From Planctomyces sp. SH-PL62 (GTDB lineage: Bacteria > Planctomycetota > Planctomycetia > Isosphaerales > Isosphaeraceae): 64,000 bases of DNA. Under the pieces are notes generated by a model that did no database searches, was not told where the DNA came from, and saw only the letters and a list, made by a program, of their open reading frames with translations. Position 1 is the first letter of the stretch; every line of letters starts with the position of its first letter. The position numbers and the translations under genes are program-made. The stretch covers positions 434,001 to 498,000 of the forward strand of contig NZ_CP011273.1 in NCBI RefSeq assembly GCF_001610895.1, read 5' to 3'. Of this stretch, positions 4,163-48,800 are shown in pieces.

Positions 4163-4750
4163 TCAGGGCTCCGGGTAGATCGGCGTGGGGTAGTAGTTCA
4201 TGGGGGCGTAGCCGTGCCAGTAGCCCGAGTAGTGGTTGGTGCCGTAAGGGCCCATGCCGTAGGACTGGCCGTAGGTCTGGTAGCGGGAGTCGGGCGTGTA
4301 GGCCGGGACGATCCCCTGCGCCGGGAGGTTGAAGTCGGCCAGGTTGCCCCGAGGCAGGACGCGGCGGAAGGGGGCGGGAGGACGGTTGTAGCCCCTCGCG
4401 TAGGTTCGCGTCGCCTTGCGGGTGGCGGCGTTGCCGACCGCCTTCTTGCCGGCGTCGACCGCGGCGGGGGCGACCTGGTCGGGTTCAAGGCCGGCGTGGG
4501 CCGCGTTGTTCGCCTCGATGGTCGCCGCCTCAAGCCGGGATTCGGGGACGCCGGGGATGATCGGGGTGGAGAAGAAGGTTCCGAAGCGGGATTCGACGAT
4601 CCCCGGGTAGGGATAGTAGAGGGAGGGAGCCTGGACGTACTGGCCGCCGAAGCCGCCGTAGGCGGGGAAGCCCCCGAGGTCCTGGGCGCGCGCCGTCGTG
4701 ACCGAGAAGGTCGCCAGGCACGCCGCCACGCCGAGTAAAGACCGCCTCAT
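4163..4750 (-). CDS. Small secreted Tyr/Gly/Pro-rich protein, function unknown
   Basis: 195 residues with a clear Sec signal peptide (MRRSLLGVAACLATFSVTTARA, cleavage before QDLGG). The mature protein is rich in Tyr, Gly and Pro, with patterns such as YYPYPGIVESRFG and a C-terminal YGQSYGMGPYG stretch. It contains no enzyme motif that I recognise. Small Tyr/Gly-rich exported proteins are frequent in planctomycetes, perhaps as wall or surface components (inference). It stands alone between the sigma gene and the divergent NRAMP gene. The ATG at 4750 fits the signal peptide. Confidence 0.65.
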   Translation of the reverse strand: MRRSLLGVAACLATFSVTTARAQDLGGFPAYGGFGGQYVQAPSLYYPYPGIVESRFGTFFSTPIIPGVPESRLEAATIEANNAAHAGLEPDQVAPAAVDAGKKAVGNAATRKATRTYARGYNRPPAPFRRVLPRGNLADFNLPAQGIVPAYTPDSRYQTYGQSYGMGPYGTNHYSGYWHGYAPMNYYPTPIYPEP

Positions 4751-30764: not shown

Positions 30765-31541
30765 TCAGACGGTCATGCCGCCGTCGACGGCCACCACCTG
30801 CCCCGTCACGTAGCTCGACGCCGGGCCGCTGAAGAACGCCACCATCTCGGCGATGTCCTCGGGCGAGCCCAGCCGCTTCAGGGGGATCCGGTCCTTCACC
30901 TCGGCCTTGATCTTGTCGGGCAGGACGTTGGTCATGTCGGTCGTGATGAAGCCCGGCGCCACCACGTTGACGGTGATCCCCCGCGAGGCCAGCTCGCGGG
31001 CGATGGTCTGGCTCAGGCCGATCACCCCGGCCTTGCTGGCGGAATAGTTCGCCTGCCCCGGGTTGCCGCGCAGGCCCGACACGCTGCTGATGTTGACGAT
31101 CCGGCCGTATCGGCCGCGCATCATCACCGCGCCCACCGCCCGGCAGAAGAGGAACGTCCCCTTGAGGTTGACGTCGATCACCTCGTCCCAGGCGTCGTCC
31201 TCCATCCGCAGCATCAGGCCGTCGCGGGTCACGCCCGCGTTATTCACCAGGACGTGGATCTTCTGATATTTCGCCTCGACCTCGTCCACGACCCGCTTGA
31301 CGTCGTCGGCCGAGGCCACGTCGGCCGCGTAGCCGTCGGCCTCGCCGCCGGCGGCTCGGATCGCCTCCAGGGTCCCCTGCAGCGCCTCGAGCGACCGGGC
31401 GACGCCGACCACCCGCGCCCCGCAGGCCGCCAGCTTCACCGCGATCGCGCGGCCGATGCCCCGCGAGGCCCCCGTCACCAGGGCCGTCTGGCCCGTCAGG
31501 TCTACGAGACAGCCCGCCTTCGAGCCCGCTTCTTCGGCCAT
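30765..31541 (-). CDS. fabG: 3-oxoacyl-ACP reductase, SDR family
   Basis: 258 residues. The SDR cofactor loop is TGASRGIG (about residues 23-30), NNAG is at about 100-103, and the catalytic Ser-Tyr-Lys are in NISSVSG (Ser 153) and YSASK (Tyr 166, Lys 170). The C-terminal TGQVVAVDGGMTV is typical of FabG. It reduces beta-ketoacyl-ACP with NADPH. The ATG at 31541 is chosen because the family N-terminus begins about 18 residues later; an ATG at 31607 would extend it. It is followed by acpP and fabF on the same strand. Confidence 0.94.
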   Translation of the reverse strand: MAEEAGSKAGCLVDLTGQTALVTGASRGIGRAIAVKLAACGARVVGVARSLEALQGTLEAIRAAGGEADGYAADVASADDVKRVVDEVEAKYQKIHVLVNNAGVTRDGLMLRMEDDAWDEVIDVNLKGTFLFCRAVGAVMMRGRYGRIVNISSVSGLRGNPGQANYSASKAGVIGLSQTIARELASRGITVNVVAPGFITTDMTNVLPDKIKAEVKDRIPLKRLGSPEDIAEMVAFFSGPASSYVTGQVVAVDGGMTV

Positions 31542-31692
31542 ATCGCGCTTGTCCTGCCAGCTAGGGTCGTTGCATCCGGGGGGGACGGTGTCGGGGACGA
31601 CGCTCATCGTCGTCGACTCGCGACGCATCCCCGCCCAGGGCCCTCCCAACGGGTCGTCCGCTCGAACAATTCGATGCAAGGAATCGAGTCTG

Positions 31693-31722
31693 GTTATAAT
31701 CCCGCCCCGAGATTCCCATCAA
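31693..31722 (-). promoter_or_regulatory. Promoter candidate for fabG
   Basis: On the minus strand TTGATG (31722-31717), an 18-bp spacer and TATAAC (31698-31693) lie about 150 bp upstream of the fabG ATG. The same AT-rich spot reads TATAAT (31695-31700) on the plus strand, without a convincing -35. Confidence 0.35.
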
Positions 31723-31868
31723 CCCCAATTCGTCGGCCGGGCGTCGGGGTCGATCGCGCGATCCCCGAAGCGCACGGCGTCCGTTTCGTCGTGGTCCCCC
31801 TCTCGGTCGACCCTGCCGAACGAGGGCGACGCGCCCGTCGGCCGATCCACCCCCCGCCGCAACCCCCC

Positions 31869-32393
31869 GAATTGGGTTCGTTCGTCGCGGTGTCGATCCC
31901 GGAAAATCGCATAAGCCCGCCTCCTCCAAGTCGTTTGCGTTCAGGACGATTGGCTTCGTTCGGCGCATTTCGTCGTCGAGGCGCTGGGCTCCGCGATGGA
32001 TCTCGAATTGGCTTCGTCCGCGCCGCCTGAAATTGAAGCCGCGCGATGAAAATCATTTGGGTTAAGTCGTTTACGGAAAATCAGGGCTGCCGGAATTGGC
32101 TTTGTTAGGCGATTCTCGTGGGCTGACCCGCTGGTCCTCCGAATCGGGTTCGTTCGTCTCGGATCCGATCCCGTAAGTTGGCTTAAGTCCAGTCAGGAAA
32201 ACGATTTCTGGACTGGAAAATTGGCTTCGTTCGGCGCTTTTCGTCGTCGCGAAGTCGGTCTCCGCGACGTTCGTCGAATTGGCTTCGTTCGCGGAGCCTG
32301 CAAACGAACAAATTCGACGTAAACCCTGGATTGAAATCGAGTTGCGAGATGTTGTCGGCCAATCCGAGATTGGCTTTGTTCGGCGCTGATCGC
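31869..32393. repeat. Two degenerate ~272-bp tandem units, each with four ATTGGCTTCGTTCGGCG-like boxes
   Basis: Boxes start at about 31870, 31949, 32007 and 32095, then again at about 32142, 32219, 32277 and 32369. Each pair is offset by 270-273 bp, so units 31869-32118 and 32141-32393 are diverged copies. The consensus is AATTGGCTTCGTTCGGCGC with T/C changes. The sequence between boxes is partly conserved as well, notably TTTCGTCGTCG after box 2 and the CGAATTGGCTTCG around box 3. The block is more AT-rich than its surroundings and has no ORF of normal composition. It lies between fabG (minus) and a DUF1559 gene (plus). Confidence 0.75.
32188..32217. other. Long imperfect hairpin inside the repeat block
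   Basis: TCCAGTCAGGAAA and TTTCTGGACTGGA form a 13-position stem (one mismatch, one wobble on plus-strand RNA) closed by the tetraloop ACGA. It occurs only in the second repeat unit and is not followed by a T run, so it does not look like an ordinary terminator. Confidence 0.6.
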
Positions 32394-32883
32394 ACGGTTT
32401 CTCGTTTGGGCTCGTCGGGCCGGGGGGGCGGGAATGGCGGGCCTCATTTCCACGAATCCTTAACTCCGGAGAAGGAATCGTTGGCGAGCCGCCCGGCCGG
32501 GGCGACGTGAGTTGGCGAGGGCCTGCGACGCTCGGCGCGCAACGGTCCCTGAAATTAAGGATGCCGCCGACTTGGCGATCAGGTGCGCCGGCGGATGGAA
32601 TTTCCACGCAGAGCCCGCCCCCCTCGGGCCAGGCGAGGCGATGGTTCTCGGATAGGTCACTGGGCGTCGTCGCTCCTGGGGTCTCGCCGAACGGCCTCGA
32701 TCGGGCGAATGGGGATCAGGGCCGGGGATGGTCCGGCTGCGATGAAATCCCTTTCAACTTCCCGGCTCGCAATTGACATGACGGCCCGTGGAGCCATCCT
32801 TTGATGTAAGCGTGACATGTTTGAATGTCGAACCCACGATTCGGATGCCCCGAAGGCGTCCCCGCCCGAATCCGGTGGTCGCT

Positions 32884-33867
32884 ATGCTCGACGCCGAGTC
32901 GATCAGGATTCGTGGACAGGCCGGGCCCCTCTCGGCTCGCCTCGGGTTCACGTTGATCGAGATCCTCGTCGCCCTGTTGATCATCGGCGTCCTGGTCGCG
33001 TTCGTGATCCCGGCGGTCCTCTCCGCGCGACGGGCGGCGGCGCGGGCGCAATGTCTCTCGAATCTGAAGCAGGTCGGCATCGCCCTCGAGTCGTACAACG
33101 GCCTGCACCACCGATTCGCCCCCGCCTTGCGCTACCCCAACGGGGCCGTCCTCACGCAGCTCTCCCCGTTCCCGGCGCTCTTGCCGGGCCTGGAGCAGCA
33201 GGCCCTGTTCGACGCCGTCAATTTCGCATTCCTGGAGGGGGATTCCCCCGAGTCTCCGACGATCGAGAACCGGACCGTCCGGGGCGTCAGGCTGGGGGTC
33301 TTGCTGTGCCCCGCCGACGGCGTCGCGGAACGGGGGTCCAATTACCGCTTCAACCGCGGCGTGTTCAACAACAAGGCCGGCCCTCCGGTCTACGACGGCC
33401 CATTCGGGCTCGGCGTCGTCCCGACCGCCGCGGCCGTCAGCGACGGCCTCTCGCGCACGGCGTTCGTCAGCGAGCGGATTTCGGGGGATTTTTCCACGAA
33501 CGCCCCGGCCGGCGGACGGAACGTCAAGCGGCCTCTCAACGACCTGGGGGCCAACACCTCGGACGAGGATTATGCTCGCCTCTGCCTCCAATCCAGGCCC
33601 GACGCCTGGATCTGGAGGTCGGGGCGATACTGGTTCTATTCGGGCGACTTGAACACCTTGTACAGCCATTTCGGCTCGCCCAACGACGCGCGGCCGTCCT
33701 GCGGCTGGGACGGTCTGCGCGAGTGGGTCTGCATCGGCCTCAATCCGCCGCGCTCGTTCCATGGGGGGGTGGGCGTCCTGTTCGGGGACGGGCATGTGGA
33801 AACGGTCGCCGACGGCGTCGACGGCAAGGTCTGGCGGGCGCTCGGGACCCACGCCGCGAAGGACTGA
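32884..33867 (+). CDS. DUF1559 prepilin-like protein
   Basis: 327 residues. It has a type IV prepilin N-methylation motif, GFTLIEILVALLIIGVLVAFVIPAV (cleavage after G, conserved E at +5), then ARAQCLSNLKQVGIALESYN, the hallmark of planctomycete DUF1559 proteins. The C-terminus has the family's GVGVLFGDGHVETV block. The leader before the cleavage site is long if translation starts at 32884 (about 22 residues) and longer still from ATG 32845. These proteins are processed by prepilin peptidase and probably form pseudopilus-like surface fibres (family inference). It follows the repeat-rich region. Confidence 0.85.
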   Translation: MLDAESIRIRGQAGPLSARLGFTLIEILVALLIIGVLVAFVIPAVLSARRAAARAQCLSNLKQVGIALESYNGLHHRFAPALRYPNGAVLTQLSPFPALLPGLEQQALFDAVNFAFLEGDSPESPTIENRTVRGVRLGVLLCPADGVAERGSNYRFNRGVFNNKAGPPVYDGPFGLGVVPTAAAVSDGLSRTAFVSERISGDFSTNAPAGGRNVKRPLNDLGANTSDEDYARLCLQSRPDAWIWRSGRYWFYSGDLNTLYSHFGSPNDARPSCGWDGLREWVCIGLNPPRSFHGGVGVLFGDGHVETVADGVDGKVWRALGTHAAKD

Positions 33868-45894: not shown

Positions 45895-48800
45895 TTCCCG
45901 TCGCCTTCCGGCTTCGGGGCGTCGGCCGCCGCCTTCTCGCGCTCGGCCCGCCAGGCCTTCGCGTCCTCGTCCTTCCCGGCGGCCTCGGCCAGCACGATGA
46001 GCCGGTCGAGCGCCTCGACGACGCGGGCCTTGCCTTGCGGCGGGATCTTGTCCGTCCGCCGCCTCATCCCGTCGTAGCCGTCCCGCAACAGCGGCTCGGC
46101 CTCGGCGGATTTCGCCTGGCCGAGCAGGGCCCCGCCGAGCATCGACTTCGTGTTGAACGTCGTCCAGGCGTCGGGATCGGCCTTCTCGCGGATCGCCAGG
46201 GCCTCGCGCAGGAGCGGCTCGGCCTGGTCGTAGGCCTTCACGGCGAGGAGGGCCAGCGAGATGGAGCAGAGGTGCGCGGCCAGCTGGGGGCTCCCCGCGG
46301 GCATGGCGGCACGCCCCTGGGCCAGGACTTCCTCGGCGACGGCCCTGGCCTTCTCGGCCCGGCCGGTCCGGGCGAGGAGCTGGAGGAGCTCCGGCGCGAC
46401 CCAGCTCAACATGGGTAAACGACGGCTCGCCGCGGCCGCCCCTTCCAGCAGGGGCAGGGCCTCGTCCAGCCGCCCGGCGTCCCGATAATTCACGCCCAGG
46501 TTCGCCTTGACCAGCCAGGTCTCGTGGTGGTCGGCCCCGAACTTGGCCATCCGCAGCTTGAGGACCTCCTCGAACAGCGGGATCGACCGATCGAGCCTCC
46601 TCGACGACCAATAAATCGAGGCCAGGTTGTTCATGCTGAGCAGGGTGTCGGGGTGGTCGGGCCCGAGCTTCGACCTGGCCGCCGCCAGCGCCTCCTCCAG
46701 CAGCGGCAGGGCGAGGTCGAGCTTGCCGACGTCCCGGTATGCCGCGGCGAGGTTGTTCATGGTGAGCAGCGTCTCGGGGTGGTCGGGCCCGAGCTTCGTC
46801 TTCCTCGCCGCCAGGGTCCGCTCCAGCAGCGGCAGGGCGAGGTCGAGCTTGCCGACCGTCTGGTAGCCCGTGGCGAGGTTGTTCATCAACGTGAGCGTGT
46901 CGGGGTGGTCGGGCCCGAGCTTCGTCTCCCGCGCCGCCAGGGCCCGCTCCATGAGCTGGAGTGCGAGGTCGATCCTGCCGACGATCCGGTAGAGAGCGGC
47001 CAGGTCGTTCATGCTCATGACCGTCTCGGGATGGTCGTCGCCGAACTTCGCCTTCCGCATCGCCAGCGCCTGCTCCATCATCGGCAGCGCGAGGTCGAAC
47101 TTGTCGGCGGACTGGTAGACGAGGCCCAGTTGGTTCATGGCGGCGAGCGTGATGGGGTGGTCGGGGCCGAGCTTCGACCTGGCCGACGCCAGCGCCTGCT
47201 CCATCAGCGGCCGCGCCAGGTCGAGCTTGCCGGCGGCTCGGTAGAGACCGGCCAGGTCGTTCATGCTCTTGAGCGTGTCGGGGTGGTCGAGTCCGAGCTT
47301 CGCCTTCCGCGCCTCCAGCGCCTGCTCCATCATCGGCCGCGCCAGATCGGGCTTGCCGGCGTCCCGGTAGAGAGCGGCCAGGTCGTTCATGCTCCTGAGC
47401 GTGTCGGGGTGGTCGAGTCCGAGCTTCGCCTTCCGCGCCTCCAGCGTCTGCTCCAGCAGCGGAACCGCGAGGTCGAGCTTGCCGACGTTCCGATAAACCG
47501 AGGCGAGGTTGTTCATGGTGAGCAGCGTCTCGGGGTGGTCGAGTCCGAGCTTCGACTTCTGCGCCGCCAGGGCCCGCTCCATCAGCGGCAGGGCGAGGCC
47601 GGGCTTGTCGGCGTCGACGTAGCCCGCGGCGAGGTTGTTCATGGTGAGCAGCGTGCCGGGGTGGTCGGGCCCGAGCTTCGCCTCCCGCGCCGCCAGGGCC
47701 CGCTCCAGCAGCGGCAGGGCGAGGTCGAGCTTGCCGACCGCCTGGTAGCCCGTGGCGAGGTTGTTCATCAACGTGAGCGTGTCGGGGTGGTCGGGCCCGA
47801 GCTTCGTCTCCCGCGCCGCCAGGGCCCGCTCCATCAACGGCAGGGCGAGGTCGATCCTGCCCATGTCCCGATGGACCGCGGCGAGGTTGTTCATGCTCAC
47901 GAACGTCGCGGGATCGTCGGGGCCGAGCTTCGCCTTCTGCGCCGCCAGGGCCCGCTCCATCAGCGGCAGGGCGAGGTCGAGCTTGCCGGCGTCCCGGTAG
48001 CCCATGGCCAAACCGTTCATGCTGTGCAGCGTGATGGGGTGGTCGGGGCCGAGTACCCTCGTTCTCGCCGCCAGCGCCTGCTGGAACAGCGGCAGGGCGA
48101 GGTCGGGCTTGCCGAGGGCTCGGTAGCACTCGGCCAGGGCGAACAGGCTGGCGAGGGTGTGGAGATGGTCGGGGCCGAGCCTGTCCAGGAACGTGGCCCT
48201 GGCTTTCGTGACCAGGGCGATCGCCTTCTCCGGATAGCCCAGGCCCGCCTGGGAGTCGCCGAGGACCAGCTGCATCCGCGCCACGGCCAGCGGGTCGCCG
48301 ATCGCGTCCCCTTCGATCTGCGCCGTCGCCTGGTCCAGCCGCTCGCCCAGGAGCGCCGACAGCGGCTTGCCGTCCTTCTCCGCGGATCGCGGGTTCAGGT
48401 CGATGAAGATCGAGCCGAGGACGGCGTTGGCCTTCTCGACCTGGGCCAGCCGCGCCTCGGCCTGGCGACGCTGCTCGACGGCGGCCCGCCGCTGGGTCTC
48501 GGCCTCCCGGCGTTGGTCCGCCTCGGCCTGGCGCGCCTCCTCCTTCTGGGCGGCCTCGGTCTCCGCGAAGCCCCGCTGCCTGGTCGCTTCCAGGAGCCCC
48601 AGCGTCGTGCCGACGATCCCGCCGACCAGGGCCAGCAGCAACAGCGACGCCGCGACGACCCGGCCCCGGTTGCGGCGCACGAACTTCCGCATCCGGTAGG
48701 CCGCCGTCGGGGGGCCGGCGGAGACGGGCTCGTGGTTGGTGAACCGCTCCACGTCGTTGGCCAGGCCGATGGCCGAGGCGTAGCGGCGGTCGCGCTCCTT

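Follow-up and report, generated by a model that had tools for sequence, protein, structure and literature searches.

The intergenic region between fabG and a DUF1559 protein gene of Planctomyces sp. SH-PL62 contains an array of eight conserved DNA boxes. We consider it probable that these boxes are sites for one sequence-specific DNA-binding protein, with chromosome architecture as its most likely role. The array lies in the 64-kb stretch of DNA that was analysed (referred to as the window, to which all positions below refer). It is one sample of a genome-wide family, as a search of the whole genome with the box pattern ATTGGCTTCGTTCGGCG, allowing at most two mismatches, gave 148 matches (79 forward, 69 reverse), compared to none for the reversed-pattern control.

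The box array between fabG and the DUF1559 gene

The eight boxes reported in the first-pass annotation are all present, and all on the plus strand. Their 17-mers start at positions 31871, 31949, 32007, 32095, 32143, 32220, 32278 and 32369, which gives box-to-box offsets of 78, 58 and 88 bp, then 48 bp, and then 77, 58 and 91 bp. Six of them match the 17-mer ATTGGCTTCGTTCGGCG with at most three mismatches, where 0.31 matches would be expected in the 64 kb, and none of 100 shuffles reached six. The array had been described as two units of 272 bp. The order of the boxes does recur at 271–274 bp, and the two halves share 79% identity over 94 nt and 78% over 55 nt, but the array is composed of four units, which alternate between a short and a long form.

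The first unit is a short form of 107 bp (31866..31972, + strand), with box A at 31871 and box B at 31949, 78 bp apart; the boxes were read directly, and the covariance-model match is 36 bits. Its box B is an exact ATTGGCTTCGTTCGGCG (31949..31965, + strand), of which an identical copy is found at 32220-32236. The second unit, a long form of 117 bp (32002..32118, + strand; 61.9 bits), has its boxes A and B at 32007 and 32095, 88 bp apart, and a degenerate inverted box A' at about 32033-32040, as read by eye. It is followed by a short form of 106 bp (32138..32243, + strand; 43.4 bits) with boxes A and B at 32143 and 32220, 77 bp apart, and by a long form of 120 bp (32273..32392, + strand; 77.2 bits) with boxes A and B at 32278 and 32369, 91 bp apart. 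This fourth unit has a degenerate inverted box at about 32304-32312 (by eye) and a weak AT-rich dyad of about 29 bp (consensus CGYAAA ... TTTRCG) at 32318..32346, which starts with CGTAAA and was deduced from a profile of 59 SH-PL62 and 46 Paludisphaera soli units.

The array is flanked by fabG, encoding a short-chain dehydrogenase (30765..31607, - strand; Pfam PF13561/PF00106) and named by its context beside fabF and acyl carrier protein, and by a gene for a DUF1559 (SBP_bac_10) protein (32953..33867, + strand; PF07596), both predicted with our own gene finder. The two genes are divergent, with the array between their starts, and the earlier description of this region as gene-free holds, as our gene finder and Pfam identified no gene between the two. 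A coding reading of the array was rejected, since none of the four ORFs that overlap or adjoin it matches a Pfam family at E<=0.1. Read on the reverse complement, the box has three open frames (RTKPI, PNEAN and ERSQF), so that mechanical ORFs cover the array on the minus strand (31561-32607), and these may show up as hypothetical proteins in annotations. Nor is the array a CRISPR, as already remarked in the annotation: the boxes are diverged and lie 48–91 bp apart, in contrast to near-identical repeats with uniform spacers. Elsewhere in the window, at 46620-48138, there is a long tandem array of 12 copies of a 126-bp unit (42 codons each), which we take to be probably a repeat-rich protein gene, TPR-like judging by its period.

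A genome-wide family of rigid units

SH-PL62, which belongs to the Paludisphaera group, has a genome of 6.785 Mb, with a chromosome of 6.507 Mb and four plasmids (PMC5352709). Exact copies of ATTGGCTTCGTTCGGCG number 43 among the genome-wide matches listed. The array could have been a one-off decayed duplication, as the first-pass annotation noted for the case that the box occurred nowhere else and was not conserved in relatives; this was rejected, since the box family is genome-wide and the boxes are present and conserved in relatives. The array loci were retrieved in two rounds, the first of 40 loci (39 chromosomal clusters plus a locus on a plasmid) and the second comprising the other 54 of the 93 chromosomal clusters.

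From 62 box anchors, the box that was first recognised proved to be the 3' part of a longer unit of about 119 bp (about 107 bp in the short form). This unit consists of box A (AATTGGSTTCGTTCGC), a short GC-rich stretch, often an inverted A' (AAACGAASCCATCGACGCAAA), a weak AT-rich dyad (CGYAAA...TTTR in the unit consensus) and box B (RAATTGGCTTCGTTCGGCG). In the full unit, A is in forward orientation, A' is inverted and follows 23–24 bp on (start to start), and B is again forward, 90 bp after A. The tail of box B is species-specific, NTTTTC in SH-PL62 and CGCTTTC in P. soli (59 and 46 units, respectively), and the 13-bp core of the sites is TTGGSTTCGNTCG.

A covariance model (R1, from alignment A1) was built from 37 units out of the 62 anchors, and favours units with A', because 40 of the 62 anchors had passed a filter for an A'-like word. 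In the profile search that had been proposed for the genome and its relatives, R1 gave 139 matches at E<=0.01 in SH-PL62 (150 of 3930 first-look candidates were scored). Nine of these were excluded from the spacing statistics, i.e. three on plasmids, three antisense partials and three weak ones inside existing clusters. The other 130 units, all chromosomal, form 93 intergenic clusters, of which 59 have one unit, 32 have two, one has three and one has four; the cluster of four, the only one on the chromosome, is the fabG array. Units are arranged head-to-tail, with a uniform orientation in all 34 clusters of more than one unit. Their lengths are rigid: 110 of the 153 matches at SH-PL62 loci, and 45 of the 51 at P. 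soli loci, measure 118–120 nt; 16 of the 153 are short forms (104–109 nt), and most others are partial pieces. Detection of the clusters is nearly complete, as 183 of the 192 TTGGSTTCGNTCG sites of the genome fall in the 94 array loci (182 within the central 2 kb of the loci). Arrays also occur on the plasmids of SH-PL62, where one of them (L042) overlaps a weak predicted ORF without a Pfam match.

Each unit might encode a structured RNA (a small RNA, a riboswitch-like leader or a terminator) with an A/A' hairpin as its stem. We regard this reading, foreshadowed by the suggestion of a non-coding RNA in the first-pass annotation, as very improbable. A and A' are able to pair, and the stem is convincing in single sequences; in the model-fitted alignment A2, none of 500 shuffles reached the observed percentage paired or covariation score. 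However, partial matches in antisense orientation are among the A2 sequences, and A2 had been fitted to the stem; its count is therefore not relied upon. In alignment A1, 33 of 500 shuffles reached the observed percentage paired and 57 the covariation score, and in alignment A3 these numbers are 101 and 34 of 500. The central pair of the stem is broken in 14 of 37 (A1), 20 of 69 (A2) and 21 of 50 units (A3). A covariance check over 6670 column pairs per species (110 and 46 units) yielded no significant pair with an excess of Watson-Crick pairing. The sole pair that passed correction shows too few Watson-Crick pairs and falls within A', a part of the unit in which the alignment slips; complementarity of A and A' at one position is weak (p 0.013 in SH-PL62, 0.16 in P. 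soli). The A/A' stem was rejected on the shuffle counts of A1 and A3 and on this all-pairs test. The rigid unit lengths also argue against an RNA, as does the orientation of the arrays, which shows no significant preference with respect to tandem genes (same in 29, opposite in 21; p 0.32), and no Rfam match at gathering score was found within the 64-kb window. Judged from these alignments, the unit looks like a DNA feature rather than an RNA.

Occurrence and conservation in relatives

Among 199 genomes of the phylum, in which SH-PL62 was the only representative of the Isosphaeraceae, TTGGSTTCGTTCG is enriched only in SH-PL62 (134 matches, compared to 0–4 in the others). Across 45 genomes of the family, which includes both SH-PL62 and Paludisphaera borealis (PMC5352709), all six members of the genus are rich in TTGGSTTCGNTCG (31–326 matches; reversed control 0–3), while many other genomes are near control level. 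In other genera, it is abundant in G025 (161 matches), G037 (96), G033 (60), G022 (60), G029 (35), G035 (32) and G007 (31). The R1 unit model is nearly limited to the genus, with 18 to at least 81 matches in its six members and 0–9 elsewhere (81 candidates scored per genome). The boxes are laid out differently in different genera, i.e. in 37-bp tandem repeats in G025 and 66-bp repeats in G007, while the box spacing in P. borealis is about 80 bp. In G025 (L289-L298) the same box thus lies in a different architecture (TTGGSTTCGNTCGGCGCGATCGAGGCTGGTCAG...), and in G007 (L305, about 4389-4654) three boxes ATTGGCTTCGCTCGGCG are found 66 bp apart in near-identical tandem units. The family was seen only in some genomes of a single planctomycete family, in agreement with the planctomycete-specific intergenic element that had been among the initial suggestions.

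Many arrays occupy the same sites in relatives. In counts taken from tables by eye, with several pairs aligning at one flank only, 27 of 34 loci of P. soli JC670 (G003) match an SH-PL62 array in orientation and in one or both flanking genes, the array lying beside the shared gene; of the other P. soli loci, three have no counterpart among the 93 SH-PL62 clusters and four are poor. The same holds for 5 of 16 loci of P. borealis (G002; L277 by box sites only) and for 4 of 10 loci of G001, in which two further loci share a flank in opposite orientation and some matches are weak. Shared flanks and orientation point to vertical inheritance of the arrays. The P. soli loci L181 and L187 both map to SH-PL62 locus L249, the flanks of which are split between the two, with an array of its own at each break in P. 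soli; the L249 array may mark a former rearrangement point.

The sites common to SH-PL62 and P. soli were compared in 53 unit pairs from 26 locus pairs, with the doubtful pair L193/L258, which was left out of the 27 of 34, included. Identity is 88% in the 45 columns of high information and 32% in the 23 of low information, the two classes having been chosen on the same data. Random cross-species unit pairs give 87% and 29%, respectively, and the intergenic DNA of the compared locus pairs is mostly not alignable. The free columns are therefore near saturation while the boxes persist, a pattern expected from purifying selection, which probably acts on the boxes. Recent copying is not visible, with identity above 75% in only 2 of 5995 unit pairs, one of which lies within a tandem array. 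Taken together, these comparisons suggest that the array family is old.

Individual arrays turn over, as seen at fabG itself. The fabF and fabG genes are adjacent in all five relatives, but an array upstream of fabG was found only in P. soli, and none beside fabG in G001, G002, G004 and G005. In G001 there is an array about 5 kb from fabG, on the other side of fabF, and in G004 a sub-threshold model match about 4 kb beyond fabG. The DUF1559 neighbour was not found at any of the fabF-fabG loci of the five relatives.

Helical phasing of the boxes

The distances between successive boxes on the same strand cluster near 45, 57, 68, 79, 90, 101, 113, 124, 135 and 146 bp, with an additional broad group at 82–83 bp in P. 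borealis. Each distinct spacing value was counted once per locus, and the spacings of 88–92 bp were deliberately excluded in SH-PL62 and P. soli. The 155 spacings pooled from SH-PL62 (without the 88–92 peak) and P. borealis give a period of 11.15 bp (bootstrap 11.0–11.2). None of 1000 jittered sets reached the signal of the fetched P. borealis loci, and likewise none that of SH-PL62 without the 88–92 bp peak. With a single spacing per locus, a Rayleigh test at 11.1 bp gave a median R of 0.64 in SH-PL62 (36 loci; p below the range of the approximation) and a median p of 1.3e-5 in P. borealis (35 loci). The data do not support a period of 10.5 bp (median p 0.15 and 0.04, respectively). In P. soli alone the phasing is non-significant, with 7 usable loci and a median p of 0.11.

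In a set of 100 P. borealis sites, from which three opposite-strand sites were excluded for phasing, a period of 18.4 bp fits as well as one of 11.2 bp (R 0.42 each); 11.2 bp was reached within its own window in none of 1000 sets, while for any period p is 0.006. The signal near 11 bp in G025 (10.9) rests largely on tandem repeats of 34–38 bp. Distances from the boxes to six control words gave R values of 0.06–0.20, except for TTCGA (0.37), a word that can occur within the rigid unit itself. Expressed in turns of 11.15 bp, the spacings of the fabG array are 7.0, 5.2, 7.9, 4.3, 6.9, 5.2 and 8.2.

As the same-strand spacings are mostly multiples of about 11.15 bp, proteins bound to the boxes would lie on the same face of the helix. 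This period is close to the 11 bp per turn reported for looped, negatively supercoiled DNA in living bacteria (PMC8501960).

Chromosomal distribution and gene context

The 93 clusters are spread evenly over the SH-PL62 chromosome, with a mean spacing of 70 kb and a coefficient of variation (CV) of the gaps of 0.586, compared to 0.956 for random placement (none of 5000 placements as low). Short gaps are rare, with one below 10 kb (10.3 expected) and five below 20 kb (21.5 expected); the largest gap is 225 kb, and no large void was seen along the chromosome. The first 2.69 Mb of P. borealis contain 37 clusters with a mean gap of 74.6 kb; the CV is 0.64 versus 0.93 (p 0.005), and a single gap is shorter than 20 kb, where 7.6 would be expected. 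Stricter merging, giving 40 clusters, leads to a p value of 0.027 for the CV, and in an earlier, less complete P. borealis box set (53 clusters) the CV was non-significant (p 0.15) and short gaps were significantly rare. The tests in the two species are not fully independent, because some sites are common to both.

Even spacing, a high copy number and species-specific variants would also suit a sequence that directs DNA uptake or recombination, such as DUS, Chi or KOPS. In their classic form, these sequences each consist of one short word and are found inside genes as well, whereas here 183 of the 192 core sites lie in multi-box array loci and form a rigid multi-site unit. No replichore-like polarity of the arrays was found along the chromosome (p 0.36), on which ground a KOPS-like polarity was rejected, and we give this type of explanation hardly any weight.

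Gene context was determined with our own codon-model gene finder for 92 clusters (L254 was unclassifiable at its edge), none of which lies inside a predicted gene. Of these, 29 are flanked by convergent, 50 by tandem and 13 by divergent genes, compared to 6, 57 and 34 of the 97 remaining intergenic regions of 300 bp or more in these loci, a clear convergent excess (29/92 versus 6/97; Fisher p 9e-6). Arrays are closer to genes on the stop side (median 116 bp, n=108) than to those on the start side (308 bp, n=76). The divergent setting of the fabG array would fit a regulon, in which the boxes are operators of a transcription factor acting on adjacent genes, and phased multi-site operators are typical of looping repressors. 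Yet only 13 of 92 arrays lie between divergent genes, the arrays lie nearer to gene ends than to gene starts by the medians above, and an even genome-wide spacing is not expected of operators, which makes a regulon decidedly unlikely.

The preference for 3' ends and convergent genes is equally expected of harmless or mobile repeats. The arrays may be old, nearly silent non-autonomous mobile repeats (REP/REPIN- or MITE-like) whose enzyme has been lost or is not recognised; target immunity would then account for the even spacing and harmlessness for the 3'-end location, and the tandem multi-unit arrays, the turnover of sites between species and the drift of the species-specific consensus fit as well. 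However, the Y1 transposase domain PF01797 has no match in the SH-PL62 genome (E<=0.001; 5 of 14 control genomes match), almost no unit pairs are near-identical, the boxes are conserved at shared sites while their spacers are saturated, and mobility has no place for helical phasing. A mobile origin of this kind is a minority reading that we consider rather unlikely, although the present function and the past origin of the arrays are separate questions.

Proposed role of the arrays

The multi-site binding array that was among the original suggestions is supported, in that the boxes are conserved, helically phased DNA sites with predicted binding. Protein binding to the boxes is well supported, albeit indirectly: specific, conserved, same-face sites in rigid units are what would be required by a DNA-binding protein that acts cooperatively or by bridging. 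The arrays are spread evenly over the whole chromosome, close to gene ends, and this favours an architectural role over a regulon. We propose that one cooperative or looping protein docks at the A, A' and B sites around the AT-rich dyad, and that the bound proteins would make contact with one another or span short loops of roughly 4–14 turns. Such nucleoprotein loops could serve as anchors or insulators of domains, or take up supercoils.

No binding protein was found for the boxes. ParB sites were considered and rejected, as ParB-domain genes are not at the clusters (none of the five chromosomal ParB_N genes is closer than about 28 kb to one) and the parAB neighbourhood of plasmid C4 has its own palindromes. 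On this plasmid (L310:7290-7920), several TATACCCCGCGTATA-like palindromes lie upstream of a parAB pair, with a box array among them; these palindromes are probably the plasmid's own parS.

A broader and more tentative idea, to which we give somewhat less than even chances, is that some Isosphaeraceae carry a chromosome-wide scaffold, with a phased multi-site nucleoprotein loop about every 70 kb delimiting regular domains. If so, it would be built by a nucleoid protein whose site co-evolves species by species, and might perhaps underlie the condensed planctomycete nucleoid. Evenly spaced, phased arrays with a 13-bp core would offer a direct handle on planctomycete chromosome organisation, and the 11.15-bp period may record the in-vivo twist of DNA in this phylum. 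To our knowledge, dispersed sites that organise bacterial chromosomes are known from only a handful of organisms. No description of these arrays was found in the open-licence literature, judged by titles and the beginning of abstracts, and the word 'intergenic' does not occur in the main text of PMC5352709.

Comparison with known systems

Like REP, BIME and REPIN elements, including the composite RIB/RIP forms, the units are intergenic, are grouped in arrays, have more than 100 copies, and combine conserved parts with a variable spacer; REP elements also prefer 3' ends and convergent genes. They differ in being helically phased and evenly spaced along the chromosome, and in having almost no near-identical copies (2 of 5995 pairs above 75%), the latter being a criterion derived in the present analysis. 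REPs, which have been reported from Planctomycetes too, are defined as short palindromic repeats tagged with GTAG or CGTC (PMC3733652), while the consensus box and unit contain no palindrome with such a tag. The absence of PF01797 from the SH-PL62 genome (E<=0.001), and hence of a recognised Y1/RAYT gene, led us to reject a RAYT/REP identity; some E. coli without RAYT still keep REPINs (PMC8049555).

In their dispersed and conserved sites the arrays resemble the sites of architectural and segregation proteins, although protein binding is here predicted from the sites themselves. The boxes are conserved beyond their surroundings (88% versus 32%), are distributed over the whole chromosome in 93 clusters, and in SH-PL62 occur also on plasmids. 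Known examples are the NBS of Noc, the SBS of SlmA, the matS of MatP and the parS of ParB, with tens of dispersed specific sites per protein. Unlike these, the box of 13–17 bp is non-palindromic and organised in phased multi-site units, without polarity or a large void. A parB-type gene close to ParB or Noc sites is a lead rather than a strict definition; no ParB_N gene lies within about 28 kb of the chromosomal clusters.

Looping operators, among them ara, have their sites in multiples of about 11 bp in vivo. This spacing, as also described for lac (PMC8501960), is shared by the arrays, whose period of 11.15 bp (bootstrap 11.0–11.2) corresponds to whole helical turns. Looping operators belong to one promoter, in contrast to the about 93 arrays that are dispersed over the genome, mainly nearer to the 3' ends of genes.
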